From a virus, in IMG/VR virus record IMGVR_UViG_3300025889_001110, positions 1 to 21,479 of that record: a DNA stretch of 21,479 bases; one strand, given 5' to 3'. This document shows, piece by piece, positions 7,335-20,753 of this stretch. The position numbers and the translations under genes were made by a program. The notes under the pieces were generated by a model. It searched no databases. It saw only the letters and a program-made list of their open reading frames with translations, and had not been told where the DNA came from. Numbering within the stretch: the stretch's first letter is position 1; each line of letters begins with the position of its first letter.

Positions 7335-7668
7335 TTATATTCCTCACTTTCGTACTGATTTTATTTATAGCAGAAATAAATTTTTCTGCAAACTTTTTTC
7401 TCACTTTTCTTTTTATGTATTCAGAATCAAATCCTGCATTTTCGCATAATTCGATAAAGTGTGGATTCTTATAATCTTTTAAAAAATCCAAAGCTTCTTT
7501 TTTTTCTTTAGGGGTTGTATCATATCTTTCAGGACCAAACGCATCATATAATGTTTGACCTAAAACAGCCCTCCACAATTTAGTTTCGGGATCTATTGTT
7601 GGAGTTTGCTCCACTCGTATAGTTTGAGTACTATACCTACCTACTGATCTTGGTGATCCTATTGGCAT
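7300..7668 (-). CDS. Hypothetical phage protein (122 aa)
   Basis: The function is not known to me. The N-terminus (about 1-25) is flexible. A helical core follows, with LWRAVLGQTLYDAFG, ALDFLKDYKNPHFIELCENAGFDSEYIKRKVRKKF, then a Lys-rich helical tail. The repeated helix-turn pattern and basic end (residues 85-120) suggest DNA binding, as in small phage regulators, but no named family can be assigned. GAGG lies 6 nt before the ATG. It starts 2 bp after the ribbon-helix-helix gene's stop, so both probably share a transcript. Confidence 0.72.
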   Translation of the reverse strand: MPIGSPRSVGRYSTQTIRVEQTPTIDPETKLWRAVLGQTLYDAFGPERYDTTPKEKKEALDFLKDYKNPHFIELCENAGFDSEYIKRKVRKKFAEKFISAINKISTKVRNINEKQKTEINRV

Positions 7669-7670
7669 AT

Positions 7671-7862
7671 TTACCTCTTTTTCTTTCGTGTTGTTGTTGA
7701 TAATTTACCATTTAATGATTTAGCTTTTTCATTAACTAGTAATGTGATTGTTTGAGAACGACTTATAGTCATCTCAGGTACAATAACTTTCCGTATGGAA
7801 TCTATTTTATTGTAAGTTTCTTTTGATAAAGAAACATTTTTATATTTACTTATATCAGTCAT
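7671..7862 (-). CDS. Ribbon-helix-helix (Arc/CopG-like) transcriptional regulator
   Basis: 63 aa, the typical size for this fold. Residues 8-14 (NVSLSKE) form the DNA-contacting strand, followed by helix A (TYNKIDSIRKVI) and, after SRSQ, helix B (TITLLVNEKAKSL). The C-terminus is basic. Such proteins bind DNA as paired dimers on inverted repeats and usually repress their own promoter. An inverted repeat ATAACAT/ATGTTAT lies directly upstream (7881-7904). It is the first gene of the long leftward accessory operon down to 3024, so it may control all of it. AAAGG precedes the ATG. Confidence 0.75.
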   Translation of the reverse strand: MTDISKYKNVSLSKETYNKIDSIRKVIVPEMTISRSQTITLLVNEKAKSLNGKLSTTTRKKKR

Positions 7863-7880: not shown

Positions 7881-7904
7881 ATAACATTCTATGTAGGATG
7901 TTAT
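7881..7904. promoter_or_regulatory. Candidate operator between divergent genes
   Basis: ATAACAT (7881-7887) and ATGTTAT (7898-7904) are perfect inverted arms separated by 10 bp, in the 65-bp gap between the leftward ribbon-helix-helix gene and the rightward 81-aa gene. Arm geometry suits a dimeric repressor. A leftward TTGAAT box (7914-7919) lies just outside, so binding could block that promoter. This is inference. Confidence 0.5.
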
Positions 7905-7927
7905 GTTAATTTATTCAAGATGTCAAT

Positions 7928-8173
7928 ATGAAATTTTTTCTAACAGTTTTTATTTGTTCAGCAATTGATAATACATGTATCATTCCCATAAATGAGCCGT
8001 ATATATACCCTAAAATGTATAATTCGCACTATGAGTGTGTAAAATCTGGACTTGCTGAGTCATATGAGATATTATATGCCGAAAAATTTTTTGATAAAAA
8101 TAATATTAATCAATATAAATTATATCCTAAATTTGGTTGTGATGAGGTTCCAGCAGAAGGTGATCCTGCTTAA
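7928..8173 (+). CDS. Small Cys-containing protein with hydrophobic N-terminus (81 aa)
   Basis: The function is unknown. The N-terminus (MKFFLTVFICSA) looks like a short signal or membrane-targeting stretch, followed by a Tyr/Pro-rich region and four cysteines in total (about 10, 17, 37 and 71). This could suit a secreted or periplasmic protein with disulphides. It is the only rightward gene for several kb. It diverges from the ribbon-helix-helix regulator, and its stop shares the TTAA at 8170-8173 with the convergent 42-aa gene. No clear ribosome site is seen. Confidence 0.68.
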   Translation: MKFFLTVFICSAIDNTCIIPINEPYIYPKMYNSHYECVKSGLAESYEILYAEKFFDKNNINQYKLYPKFGCDEVPAEGDPA

Positions 8174-12421: not shown

Positions 12422-12579
12422 TATATTTTCTCCTTTAGTGAATCTAAATATTCTTGATCTTCTTTATTTAATTGTTCTTCTTTTTTCTTATTTCCAAATA
12501 TCTCTTCCCAACGTTGTTTATAAACATCGTTAGTGGGTCTAGATACACCGTCGTATTTTCTACCTTTTTCCTTTGCCAT
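12421..12579 (-). CDS. Small charged protein (52 aa) before PolA
   Basis: A short frame between DUF3310 and PolA. It overlaps the former by 20 bp and the latter at TAATG. It is highly charged, with a basic N-terminus (AKEKGRKYDG), a WEEIFG segment and a Lys/Glu-rich helical tail. No motif is recognised. Tight coupling on both sides and no other explanation for the 138-bp gap favour a real gene. It could modulate PolA. Confidence 0.68.
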   Translation of the reverse strand: MAKEKGRKYDGVSRPTNDVYKQRWEEIFGNKKKEEQLNKEDQEYLDSLKEKI

Positions 12580-12817
12580 GATCCATATCTTTCAATTTCT
12601 TTTTTTCTAATTCACAATAATGAATTATTTTTTCTAAATCTTCTATGCCATTTTTATTCATATAACGGCACACATACTTTATTACATTACCTTGAAAGAA
12701 TGACAAGTCATTCTTAGAAATAAATTCATAAGGTTGAATGTGAAAATCTTTGTAGTGATTCCCGCCTATCTGTTTATCTTGTGGAAATGCTTCATCAAAC
12801 ATATTTTTATTTGTCAT
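12560..12817 (-). CDS. DUF3310 family protein
   Basis: The family pattern is clear: GGNHYKDFHIQPYEFI (19-33), GNVIKYVCRYMNK (43-55), then GIEDLEKIIHYCELE (57-71). DUF3310 proteins are common among replication genes of tailed phages and may be nucleotide-binding, but their biochemical role is not established. It is 85 aa, typical. AAAGGAG precedes its ATG. Upstream, separating it from the helicase, is a 150-bp gap with a strongly structured element, which would form its 5' leader. Confidence 0.85.
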   Translation of the reverse strand: MTNKNMFDEAFPQDKQIGGNHYKDFHIQPYEFISKNDLSFFQGNVIKYVCRYMNKNGIEDLEKIIHYCELEKKKLKDMDHGKGKR

Positions 12818-12838
12818 ACTTTACTCCTTTAAGTTATT

Positions 12839-12968
12839 GTGGTAGTTGTTGGTTTAACGGGCATGATAATCTTTTGGGAATCGAAGGCCCCGAACCAACG
12901 TCGCTCGTTAAAGCGCGAAGCTACCACTCTCCGCTGAGACTTTCCTTCTATCCCGATCGGTTGAAAGT
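12839..12968 (-). ncRNA. Candidate structured RNA: three-way junction plus two hairpins
   Basis: P1 GTGGTAG/CTACCAC (12839-12845/12921-12927) encloses P2 GTTGGTT/AACCAAC (12848-12854/12893-12899) and P3 CGCT/AGCG (12902-12905/12912-12915). Inside P2, GGGC/GCCC (12859-12862/12887-12890) adds a further stem. Next to P1 are CTC/GAG (12929-12931/12936-12938) and ACTTTC/GAAAGT (12939-12944/12963-12968). Helices follow each other with few linker bases, and the gap is much richer in GC than its neighbours. The strand is assigned from the operon direction. tRNA-like words occur (GGTAGC, GGTTCG, TTCGATTCC) but no tRNA fits. Confidence 0.5.
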
Positions 12969-14437
12969 TACAAAGAATAGCCATAACGCTCCTTCTTTGG
13001 TTTCAATAAGTACAAATTTTCTTTAGTTCTGGTAATACCTACATACCAAACTCTATGTTCCTCATTTGATTTCTCTTCATTATTTTCAATTGAATCTCTA
13101 ATTTTTTTAGCGTTATCTAACACAACAATTACATTTTCACATTCACCACCTTTTGCTGCATGAATAGTTGATACTTCTATCCTTGGATCTGGTGATAGTT
13201 TTTCACCATTAGATAACATTGTTCTTATATAATAACATTCATCTTGATCTGCTTTTGTAAATACATTGTACCAAAGATCATCTGGTAAATATCCAAAATC
13301 AGATAGTTTATATAAAGCTTGTGTTTCTTTAAATTTTGGTGAACGCGATACGTATTCAGATAATTCTTTTGCATCAGCTAATGATAAAGCGCTACCTTTA
13401 CAAAGATGACTAAAGTTTAGAATAGCTTTGTATAATCTTGTATTGTAACTTTTACCAAATCTATTTTTAAAATATAAATTGTTTTGTCTTAATTGTTTTG
13501 AAATTTCATCTGAACGATATGTAGTTCTAGTTAATATTAACCAGTTACCTTTAGTTAAATCTATATGATCCATATTATATATATGTTGAACAGAACCTTG
13601 AATACCTTTTTTAGGTAAATAATCTTTTCGTTTTCTAACAGTAATTCTTTGCAATATAATATCTGTTAATTCTTGTACTGCTGGTGGTATACGATTTGAA
13701 TAATTTAATATCTCTTCTTCTGCAGGTTCATTTAAAAATCTATTAACATCCGCTCCTGCCCAGGCAAATATGGCTTGGTCATCATCACCAGCTAAATAAA
13801 TATCTTTTGATTTTTCTTTTAATACATCAAACATTCTCCATTGTATTGGAGATAAATCTTGAGCCTCATCAATAAATACCACATCAAACTCTTTACATTT
13901 TTCTTTTTCATCTACAAATTTTGTAATCATATCATTAAAATCATAAAGGGTATCACCTTTAAAATGATTATAATTTAAGTAAACATGACCTAATGTTTCA
14001 TAATCTAAATCATCACTGTATTCATTTGTATTAAATTCATCTTCTACAGAAATATTTTTAACTCTAGCTTTATTAATTAATTTGAAATATTCACTATTGA
14101 AATTTAAATAACCAGATTCATCACCTGAATCTGTCACTCTTAAATTTAATTCTTTACCTATTTGTTCATAATGTACTGGTTGTAAAACATTTTCTTCACT
14201 CATACCCAATGTATGAAATGCAAACGAGTGTAATGTTTGAAAGTTTCTTAAATCTTTCTTATCTAAATCAGAATTTCTTTCGAGCATTCTATCTTTAGCT
14301 TCATTAGCTGCTTTTCTAGTAAATGCAAAGTAACCTATTTTATTTAAGGGAGTACCTTTTTTAATATACTCATCTACATAATTTAATAATGTAGTTGTTT
14401 TACCAGTGCCTGGAGGTCCAAAAATCTTTTTAATCAT
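12968..14437 (-). CDS. Superfamily 1 (UvrD/PcrA-type) DNA helicase
   Basis: ATP-driven 3'-5' or related translocase for replication or recombination. Motifs are in order: Walker A GPPGTGKT (7-14), YFAFTRKAA (motif Ia, 36-44), TLHSFAFHTLG, Walker B FIDEAQD (188-194), motif III LAGDDDQAIFAWAGAD (215-230), motif IV near SNRIPP, motif V STIHAAKGGE (423-431), motif VI YVGITRTKE (465-473). At 489 aa it is compact, without large 1B/2B insertions. It begins at TAATG on the primase stop, so primase and helicase are translationally coupled, which fits a primosome pair. Its stop lies at the edge of the structured element. Confidence 0.95.
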   Translation of the reverse strand: MIKKIFGPPGTGKTTTLLNYVDEYIKKGTPLNKIGYFAFTRKAANEAKDRMLERNSDLDKKDLRNFQTLHSFAFHTLGMSEENVLQPVHYEQIGKELNLRVTDSGDESGYLNFNSEYFKLINKARVKNISVEDEFNTNEYSDDLDYETLGHVYLNYNHFKGDTLYDFNDMITKFVDEKEKCKEFDVVFIDEAQDLSPIQWRMFDVLKEKSKDIYLAGDDDQAIFAWAGADVNRFLNEPAEEEILNYSNRIPPAVQELTDIILQRITVRKRKDYLPKKGIQGSVQHIYNMDHIDLTKGNWLILTRTTYRSDEISKQLRQNNLYFKNRFGKSYNTRLYKAILNFSHLCKGSALSLADAKELSEYVSRSPKFKETQALYKLSDFGYLPDDLWYNVFTKADQDECYYIRTMLSNGEKLSPDPRIEVSTIHAAKGGECENVIVVLDNAKKIRDSIENNEEKSNEEHRVWYVGITRTKENLYLLKPKKERYGYSL

Positions 14438-16077
14438 TAGAAATTACTTTCTCTCTTTTGTATAACTTGTTCTTTTGGTTTCTCTTCGTCAGATAATAAT
14501 TCAGGAAACTTATTTAAAGATATTTTAACAACATTAACTGGTGGATTAGATTTTTCTTGACCTGCTGATTTTGGAAATCTTTTTTGATTAGTAAAATCTG
14601 CTTCAAATAATTCTTTCATCATTTCTCCAGTAACCATTCTATTATCTTTCCATTCTTTATTTTTTAAAGTATTAAAAAAACTTGCATAAACAAAGTATGC
14701 ATGACTATCTTCAATCAATACTGCTCCTGTTTTAAATGACGCGTGAGTCTGTGCTTTTGGTCCATTTAAATAAGTCAATAAATATTCCTCTAATAGTTCT
14801 TTTGGTGTTGTACCTTTTGGTGGAGGTGTTGTTAATTTAGGTGGAAATAAATTATCTAATATATCTTGAAATTCATTTTGTTTTATTTTTGGTGGAACCA
14901 TGTCTGCTGCTGCACCAATAATTGCTCTAATATTATCTAGTTCAATAATTTGTTTTATATTTTTTGCTCTTACTTCTTTTGTAGTTTGTCCATCAGATAA
15001 TGTTACATTAAATGTATATTGTGGTTCAGGATAAGTTATTTTCTGTAATCCTGATAATGCTGGGAAAACTCTTTTTTTATCTGATAAATATCCAAAAGCT
15101 CTCTTACGACACTCTGCTTTCATACATACTGGTTGTATTGGATCTTCAGTACAAGTATGTCCTTTAGTTTCTCTAACCCAAGATTTTAATTTCTTTTTAG
15201 TTTTATCTTCCGACCAATCTATAACTCCATTTGCATCCGGCTTAAAATATTTACCCGGTGCTGCAATAACCATTTTTTCCCAATCATCTGGATATTTCTT
15301 TTTAGCAAACACCATGTAGTTATATAAAAATCTATCTCTACCATCTGTTAATGGTTCTTTAGTTAATATTTGTAAACAAGGTGGACCATCATTAAATTCT
15401 TCTGCTCCACCATTTAATAAAGATCTGGTGTGTTCTATTGTAAATTCTTCTAATTCATCTGCAGTATAAGTATTAGCATCTATTACATCTATAAATTGAT
15501 CAAATGTAAATGTTGTACCATCTAAATTAAATCCAACTCTTTCTGTTTTATTGTAATAAGGTAAATTAATATATTGACCCATGTTCCATTTACCTTCAGC
15601 ATCTTTACCTAATTCTGTTTGCTTAGGATATATTTCAATATTGTTTGGAAGTTTTAATGTAAGTAGTAATCCTTCTAAAAAATTTCTTATTGCAACTGCT
15701 CTTATTTTTTCTTTAACAAATAAATATAAATGAAGTCCACCACTTTTAGATTTAACTGGAACAATTGGTAATTTATGTTCTGAAATAATATCTAAATATT
15801 TTTTATATGGAAAATTAGAATAACTATGTTGCTTATCATCAATATCTATAGCACCAAATTGTGCCATACCTTTATCATCACATGGTTGAATACCAATTGA
15901 TTGTCTACCATTTAAATGATCTAAATAATCTTGATCTTTAATTTCTCTGTGTGCCCAACCATAAACTGGTTTAGCTTTACCTGTACTTGGATCTATTGAT
16001 AATTTTTTTAAATTGGCTACACCAAAATTTCTTTGTAATCCTGAAAATATTTCTATAAATCTTTTTTCTTTATTCAT
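14437..16077 (-). CDS. Archaeo-eukaryotic-type primase (AEP), TOTE-like
   Basis: Likely makes replication primers. The N-terminal catalytic part shows the AEP pattern: FGAIDIDDK (D78, D80), SKSGGLHLYLF (H116) and NIEIYPKQ (E149), similar to the primase domain in TOTE-type elements. The middle contains PPC (C234), then HTC (C309), C318 and C323 near RAFG, a four-cysteine arrangement reminiscent of the Fe-S region of primase large subunits. The C-terminal third is Lys/Pro rich with PPKLTTPPPKG, then a winged-helix-like end. No helicase motor is fused; the SF1 helicase is the next gene (TAATG). 546 aa. Confidence 0.85.
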   Translation of the reverse strand: MNKEKRFIEIFSGLQRNFGVANLKKLSIDPSTGKAKPVYGWAHREIKDQDYLDHLNGRQSIGIQPCDDKGMAQFGAIDIDDKQHSYSNFPYKKYLDIISEHKLPIVPVKSKSGGLHLYLFVKEKIRAVAIRNFLEGLLLTLKLPNNIEIYPKQTELGKDAEGKWNMGQYINLPYYNKTERVGFNLDGTTFTFDQFIDVIDANTYTADELEEFTIEHTRSLLNGGAEEFNDGPPCLQILTKEPLTDGRDRFLYNYMVFAKKKYPDDWEKMVIAAPGKYFKPDANGVIDWSEDKTKKKLKSWVRETKGHTCTEDPIQPVCMKAECRKRAFGYLSDKKRVFPALSGLQKITYPEPQYTFNVTLSDGQTTKEVRAKNIKQIIELDNIRAIIGAAADMVPPKIKQNEFQDILDNLFPPKLTTPPPKGTTPKELLEEYLLTYLNGPKAQTHASFKTGAVLIEDSHAYFVYASFFNTLKNKEWKDNRMVTGEMMKELFEADFTNQKRFPKSAGQEKSNPPVNVVKISLNKFPELLSDEEKPKEQVIQKRESNF

Positions 16078-19875: not shown

Positions 19876-20298
19876 TTATTTAACTTTTATTTCTTGAGCT
19901 TTAACTTCTTCCGGTTCATTAACTCCTAATTTAACAGTCAATACACCGTCTTCCATTTTAGCGTCATCAACAACTACATCATTTCTTAAAGAAAATTGTT
20001 TGTAGAATTTTCTGAATGCTAAACCTTTTTCAATGTATTCTTTTTCTTTGTCATCTACTTGACCAGAAACAGTTAATACACCATCTTTGTATTCAACTTT
20101 AACATTCTTTTTGTTGTAACCAGCAAGACCTAGTTCTATTCCATATTGTCCTTTTCCATATTTCACTACATTGTAAAATGGAAATGATTGTACTTTTGAT
20201 AAACTATCAAAGATAGAATCAAAAGAATCACCAAACATTCTATTGGAATTATCCCAAAGATCTTTTTGGAATTTATTTATTAAATCTAAACCTGTCAT
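19876..20298 (-). CDS. Small heat-shock protein (Hsp20/alpha-crystallin)
   Basis: ATP-independent chaperone holding unfolded proteins. The alpha-crystallin domain runs from about 45 to 130. The beta-strand pattern GIELGLAGYNKKNVKVEYKDGVLTVSG is followed by a charged loop, FRKFYKQFSLRNDV and KMEDGVLTVKL, which matches the conserved A-x-x-x-G-V-L-T-x-x-x motif. The C-terminal tail contains QEIKVK, a weaker version of the usual I-x-I anchor. The start is ATG 20298, not the upstream in-frame ATG, because AAGGAGG precedes it. Hsp20 genes occur in marine myoviruses and may help virion assembly. It lies 74 bp after the SpeD-like gene. Confidence 0.92.
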   Translation of the reverse strand: MTGLDLINKFQKDLWDNSNRMFGDSFDSIFDSLSKVQSFPFYNVVKYGKGQYGIELGLAGYNKKNVKVEYKDGVLTVSGQVDDKEKEYIEKGLAFRKFYKQFSLRNDVVVDDAKMEDGVLTVKLGVNEPEEVKAQEIKVK

Positions 20299-20372
20299 AT
20301 AAACCTCCTTGTTAATGTTAAGCAAAGTTTAGTGGCCAGCCTAATTGCTGCACCGATAAGTAATATAATTAT

Positions 20373-20753
20373 TTATTTGATATCTACAAGTCCTGTTTCG
20401 CGATTCAGGTATTTATATTCTATTTTAGATGTATTAAAATCTTGTTGTATTTTCTTACATATTTGTTCATGGTCAAACTCACCACAACTATATACATCAA
20501 ATTGCATTAATGCAGGTTTAACTTCATCCCATACATGCATGGCTATATGTGATGTTTCAATAATTGCAACAGCGGTAATGCCTCTATTACCTGGCATAGT
20601 ACAATATTTAACATATGGACCCATGAATACTTTCATATTTATATCCATAATAAAATTGTTTAACCAACTTTTTAAATAATTTTCATCTACTGGTGGATTA
20701 TTTATTTCTGCTCGGACAATAAGATGCTTATGCACCAACAAACTATTTTCCAT
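20373..20753 (-). CDS. speD: S-adenosylmethionine decarboxylase-like pyruvoyl enzyme (SpeD family)
   Basis: Auxiliary metabolic gene of polyamine synthesis, also found in cyanophages. Conserved positions are S68 (self-cleavage, becoming the pyruvoyl group), H69, H73 and C90 in IIETSHIAMHVWDE...FDVYSCG, with spacings close to bacterial SpeD. The residue before the Ser is Thr instead of the usual Glu, and the HT of the canonical HTWPE is HV. Both are variations that could change substrate; some SpeD homologues, including phage-encoded ones, decarboxylate arginine or ornithine instead. 126 aa is normal for the class. AAAGG precedes the ATG. It lies between the holin-like and Hsp20 genes. Confidence 0.87.
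   Translation of the reverse strand: MENSLLVHKHLIVRAEINNPPVDENYLKSWLNNFIMDINMKVFMGPYVKYCTMPGNRGITAVAIIETSHIAMHVWDEVKPALMQFDVYSCGEFDHEQICKKIQQDFNTSKIEYKYLNRETGLVDIK

Follow-up and report, generated by a model that had tools for sequence, protein, structure and literature searches.

The element analyzed here shares parts of its architecture with several described RNAs. The pRNA of phi29-type phages is a phage RNA of ~120 nt that has a three-way junction and loop pairing and is present once per genome, and the exonuclease-resistant RNAs of flaviviruses combine a three-way junction with a pseudoknot. In contrast to the pRNA, the element has no Rfam match and lies among early genes, and no link to packaging genes was found. 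The flavivirus RNAs pair their loop with a downstream strand, whereas the element pairs its loop with an upstream strand, and no homology is implied. Transfer RNAs and tRNA-like RNAs have a 7-bp stem and GGTTCG-like and CCA words in common with the element, but no tRNA fold was found for the element, which has no D arm and no CCA end and whose apical loop is paired to a 5' segment. Orphan structured RNA motifs have been uncovered by comparative genomics of bacterial, archaeal and metagenomic sequence (for example, Weinberg et al. 2010, PMC2864571). Like these motifs, the element is a covarying multi-stem RNA from environmental sequence with no assigned function; unlike them, it has no Rfam 15 family, changes its neighbor genes, occurs as a single copy and is threaded by a reading frame. 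The candidate RNAs of Candidatus Pelagibacter ubique (PMC2704228) come from a similar marine, AT-rich, SAR11-related setting and some contain pseudoknots, but they are host 5' leaders, and a text search of that paper found no phage, helicase or DUF3310.

The window is the whole 21,479-nt stretch of IMG/VR virus record IMGVR_UViG_3300025889_001110 that we analyzed. The source of the element is an uncultivated marine-type phage, in which it occupies the gap (12818-12967) between two replication genes on the minus strand, a UvrD-type helicase upstream (12968-14437; Pfam PF00580, E 7.6e-32) and DUF3310 downstream (12560-12817; PF11753, E 3.5e-11). An earlier note on this DNA had described the gap as GC-rich within an AT-rich operon, and the composition agrees, at 46.7% GC (50.8% in the core, 12839-12958) compared with 31.6% for the window. 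The minus strand is the operon sense at this site and the element is read there. Three further genes of the window were recorded: 5' of the helicase, a primase (14437-16077) matches PF22548, an archaeo-eukaryotic primase domain described from TOTE conflict systems, and proteins of 126 aa (20373-20753) and 149 aa (19876-20325) look by eye like an S-adenosylmethionine decarboxylase (polyamine synthesis) and a small heat-shock (Hsp20) protein, respectively.

A folded RNA with a three-way junction and a long-range pseudoknot

Relatives of the gap were collected from IMG/VR with a helicase query, a second helicase query and DNA pattern scans. The first helicase scan returned 80 loci, many of them with the gap; in L022 (helicase 78% identical) and L023 the helicase and DUF3310 genes nearly abut and the gap is absent. 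Much more diverged copies were reached by the pattern scans and the second query, and at least 132 distinct copies were obtained, the window's minus-strand 12837-12968 among them; since copies share ancestry, such counts overstate independence. A covariance model built from 28 copies, including that of the window, matched 71 of 71 chosen sources at E < 1e-11 with one match each, and the family is larger than the collection. Covariance model R1 matches the element over its full length (12837-12968, minus strand) at 140 bits (E 3e-34), a score given by construction because the training alignment contains the window copy. R1 could also be used to align 71 diverged copies.

The shared fold is a three-way junction of P1, P3 and P2/P2b, and RNAalifold recovered these four helices unaided from 28 distinct copies. 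In the window copy, all on the minus strand, P1 (7 bp) pairs GTGGTAG (12921-12927) with CTACCAC (12839-12845), P2 (7 bp) pairs GTTGGTT (12893-12899) with AACCAAC (12848-12854), P3 (4 bp) is the hairpin CGCT-TTAACG-AGCG (12902-12915), and P2b continues P2 for 5 bp by pairing CGGGG (12888-12892) with GCCCG (12858-12862), after which comes a conserved UUA bulge, part of a GUUAAA motif. The 3' strands of P1, P2 and P2b are placed by the RNAalifold fold and by pairing across the 71 copies. In that set P1 is paired in 98.8% of cells, with double changes at 5 pairs, P3 in 97.3% (double changes in 4 of 4 modelled pairs) and P2b in 93.7% (4 of 5 pairs), while P2, at 99.4%, is nearly invariant in sequence. 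The weakest helix is hairpin H, TCTC-AGCG-GAGA (12928-12939, minus strand), with 74% of cells paired and double changes present. Outside the helices, the UC after P1 and the GUUAAA motif are conserved as unpaired letters, and GTTAAA appeared unprompted in 87 of the pattern-scan matches listed. A second pseudoknot, between UAAC of the P3 loop and GUUA of the bulge, was considered and dropped: both are mostly invariant, and where the P3 loop does differ (AAGA or CACACA), its partner does not follow.

Over the 71 copies, 94.2% of cells are paired compared with 83.5% in shuffles and 23-56% when the partners were slid, and 222 double-change cells were observed versus 71 expected, with double changes at 18 of 27 pairs; having been fitted to the structure, this alignment is biased in its favor, but the unaided 28-copy fold agrees. 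Folding energy of the single sequence, a check proposed in the earlier note alongside covariation in related gaps, was unremarkable (z about -1.1 to -1.4, with 18-24 of 200 shuffles folding equally well), so that the case is carried by the compensatory changes among relatives. We counted 103 G-U cells and 9 A-C cells, the latter being what would be G-U cells of the opposite strand (hairpin H left out), indicating that the selected molecule is the minus-strand RNA in operon sense and arguing against the structured DNA origin that had been offered as one interpretation of the gap. At the level of sequence comparison, compensatory changes beyond both shuffled and slid controls thus show that the element is a real folded RNA of ~130 nt, read from the operon-sense strand, with a three-way junction of P1, P3 and P2-P2b.

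Covariation also shows a long-range pseudoknot, PK-A, that locks the junction; its two strands are a segment immediately 5' of the junction and the apical loop of P2b. GGGAtaGAAGG (12944-12954) pairs with the loop sequence CCTTCgatTCCC (12876-12887) in two minus-strand helices, GGGA (12951-12954) with TCCC (12876-12879) and GAAGG (12944-12948) with CCTTC (12883-12887). Relatives replace both strands, as in GAGAAA/TTTCTC (L174), GCGA/TCGC (L190), ATGGAG+GAGAAG/CTTCTC+CTCCAT (L239) and AGGA+CATAATGA/TCATTATG+TCCT (L341). In a swap test that counts Watson-Crick pairs only and uses the segment boundaries of the alignment alone, 38 de-duplicated copies formed a mean of 9.68 pairs with their own loop, 7.53 with the loops of other copies and 6.67 with shuffled loops, and none of 50,000 permutations reached the observed mean. 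A permissive first version (1 in 20,000) had a high background and is not the one relied on; an earlier energy-based version agrees with the Watson-Crick result. The evidence fits pairing inside one molecule or between two. The fold first proposed for the gap, a junction of P1, P2 and P3 with two adjoining hairpins, therefore holds as to the junction but is incomplete, the RNA being larger and including P2b and the pseudoknot; of the two hairpins H stands moderately, and the other, at 12940-12968, is rejected because its strand belongs to PK-A.

A pseudoknot, a multi-stem junction and conserved unpaired letters are together the layout expected of ribozymes, and the element might be catalytic, by self-cleavage or otherwise, and process the polycistronic message. 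We consider this very unlikely, as no Rfam ribozyme matched, the element is larger than most ribozymes and no cleavage-site signature or catalytic motif was recognized.

Relation to described families

Searches for a described relative were negative. Rfam 15 at gathering threshold gave no match for the window, nor over the element in 11 diverged loci, and permissive scans returned chance matches only (E 3-10). ARAGORN found no tRNA or tmRNA and Rfam RF00005 and tmRNA were likewise negative, in line with the earlier view that the RNA, despite its tRNA-like words, cannot fold as a tRNA. No copy was found in cultivated phages by blastn with the window gap and four diverged copies, nor in four whole pelagiphage genomes with covariance model R2, which gave one sub-threshold partial match (E 0.27). 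Searching open-licence papers in full text for structured RNAs of phages brought up no account of the element, and an earlier description elsewhere is possible. These results support the assignment, also made in the earlier note, to no described family, and the well-supported RNA adds to phages a component unseen in the cultivated ones tested here. Some genes of the uncultivated phages that bear it resemble those of phages of Pelagibacter, an abundant marine bacterium.

A pattern scan of host genomes (GTDB contigs) gave one match, on a contig of an archaeal MAG, where the element is that of phage copy L018. This contig, LSSG01000033.1 of Thermoplasmatales MAG SG8-52-3 (L327, 7700-8000), carries the end of the helicase and the start of DUF3310 as well, and is probably a phage contig binned into the archaeal MAG.

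Reading frames through the element

In the window, an open reading frame of 51 codons (12829-12984, minus strand) bridges the two genes, its ATG overlapping the end of the helicase gene and its stop touching the DUF3310 ribosome-binding site. An ATG-started frame is open through the entire element in 105 of 130 copies compared with 36 of 1300 dinucleotide-shuffled versions, counts that concern related copies and not independent events; several clades with differing ATG positions and frames show it, and the ATG usually overlaps the end of the upstream gene. A frequency so far above that of shuffles would suit an ordinary small protein gene whose RNA pairing is a by-product, but the bridge frame falls in all three frames relative to the fold (55, 36 and 17 copies), codon positions differ about equally (e.g. 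633/719/687) with no third-position excess, and changes in the frame are mostly non-synonymous (1100, versus 330 synonymous). A Pfam search with the bridge ORF had no match, and the pairs covary. Since the frames differ and the codon positions change equally, there is no conserved protein; with neither a conserved frame nor purifying selection on amino acids, we find a protein gene hardly credible and keep the frame as a bridge only.

The presence of the frame follows the orientation of the next gene. By automatic count, 89 of 96 copies have it when the next gene lies on the same strand, and 11 of 22 when that gene lies on the opposite strand (Fisher p 1.2e-5). Nine of those 11 were judged to be misassigned in-operon loci (L195, L199, L215, L254, L257, L308, L337, L344 and L354), giving a hand-corrected 98 of 105 in-operon and 2 of 13 convergent copies, a correction made after the result had been seen. 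The simplest account of the in-operon frames would be that ribosomes are kept moving to the downstream gene. The frame would be held open so that they reach the downstream genes, by translational coupling and/or by avoidance of Rho-dependent polarity, and the amino acids would be immaterial. Such frames may be a natural case of translation routed through a folded RNA without protein selection, and they bear on how compact operons tolerate non-coding insertions.

Placement, exchange and possible roles

The gene upstream of the element is a UvrD helicase in most copies; elsewhere it is an SNF2 helicase, an HNH endonuclease, a PD-(D/E)XK nuclease, a methyltransferase, a small open frame or a sigma factor, the last on a contig (L272) that also has a gp5-like baseplate gene. 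The labels HNH, methyltransferase, sigma factor and gp5-like were assigned by reading the sequence and by resemblance to genes of the window, not by family search. In every copy the element is co-directional with the upstream gene, whose stop codon usually precedes P1 by 35-64 nt. At three loci the upstream gene runs into the element, its coding sequence and stop reaching the PK-A 5' strand or P1 (L269 5667-5799, L333 2395-2520, L301 759-889), and ribosomes translating that gene must therefore disrupt the fold.

Most copies lie between the UvrD helicase and DUF3310, often with a start codon 6-20 nt after the element, and the bridge frame closes at the DUF3310 start site. This arrangement favors a leader that regulates DUF3310 and DNA polymerase in cis, riboswitch-like or as an attenuator, perhaps sensed through translation of the bridge frame. 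The earlier note had suggested a leader of DUF3310 and PolA, which is right as to position at this site but does not extend to a role specific to those genes, as the neighbors vary elsewhere. The same RNA precedes unrelated genes or has no same-strand gene downstream, and in some DUF3310 copies (L239, L261, L263) a Shine-Dalgarno sequence is not evident. A riboswitch leader consistently precedes the genes of one pathway and reaches their start signals, whereas here several copies face convergent genes. Because the neighbor genes change, the element is unlikely to regulate DUF3310 or PolA, and we regard a cis-acting leader as quite unlikely.

At six SNF2 loci (L256, L331, L339, L342, L362 and L425) and after the sigma factor of L272 the next gene is convergent, so the RNA is a transcript end there. 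It does not have the features of an intrinsic terminator: no U run follows P1 in the 13 loci read, and a terminator scan of the window was empty. Constant placement directly after a stop codon, co-directional and including transcript ends that face convergent genes, together with a compact pseudoknot fold, would be consistent with a 3'-end stabilizer that blocks 3'-to-5' exonucleases and protects the mRNA of the upstream gene (helicase, nuclease, sigma factor). We rate this as somewhat unlikely, since the upstream genes have no common theme, close relatives dispense with the element at the same gene, and there is one copy per record though many genes could use it.

Exactly one copy was found in each of 18 whole records searched (up to 67 kb). 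Twenty records without the element at the helicase/DUF3310 junction, many of them fragments, contained none elsewhere in the record, which suggests that it is dispensable, and no protein family tracked its presence in a gene-content search for a partner protein. Comparison of L162 with the window gave 50% amino acid identity for the helicase and 80% nucleotide identity for the element, whereas against L174 and L190 the corresponding values were 63-68% and 69%; L169, the closest helicase relative (89%), has no element. These disagreeing identities show different histories for the element and the adjacent helicase, as far as sequences can tell, and indicate that the element moves or recombines separately from its neighbor. 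The L174 element is closer to that of the window (79%) than to that of L162 (69%), so several exchanges are likely. Patchy presence, shifting location and a history unlike that of the helicase would also fit a selfish mobile RNA of no benefit to the phage, whether recombination or an activity encoded by phage or host moves it. Random insertion would not usually leave a single, strictly co-directional copy, no encoded protein for mobility was found and the structure is under strong selection, making a selfish element improbable.

The element is independent of location, with orientation fixed while position changes, occurs once per record searched and is strongly constrained in structure, which argues that the function lies in the RNA itself, in trans or on whichever transcript carries the element. 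The reading that we tentatively favor, at modest confidence and a little short of calling it probable, is a mobile, location-independent and probably trans-acting accessory phage RNA, with bridge frames where it lies in operons; protection of mRNA 3' ends ranks next. The element would be transcribed with early genes, as their 3'-untranslated region or as a stretch between cistrons, and would act irrespective of its site. Most likely it would be a stable RNA that targets the host or the infection in trans, in host takeover or counter-defence for instance, and not a regulator of its neighbors. Location independence is what suggests the action in trans; against it, one copy per record would also fit a selfish element or an element stabilizing the whole transcript. 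A further possibility, held with less confidence, is that the element represents a new class of RNA, mobile, single-copy and pseudoknotted. Such an RNA would act in trans in the course of infection and would shift from the 3' end of one early gene to that of another, and at each in-operon landing site a bridge ORF, independent of sequence and frame, would be kept through the folded RNA so that translation of the operon goes on. The sigma-factor contig L272 carries two other RNAs, a glutamine riboswitch and a tRNA gene (7623-7674 and 7902-7972), and a gene that by eye resembles phosphate-binding PstS.
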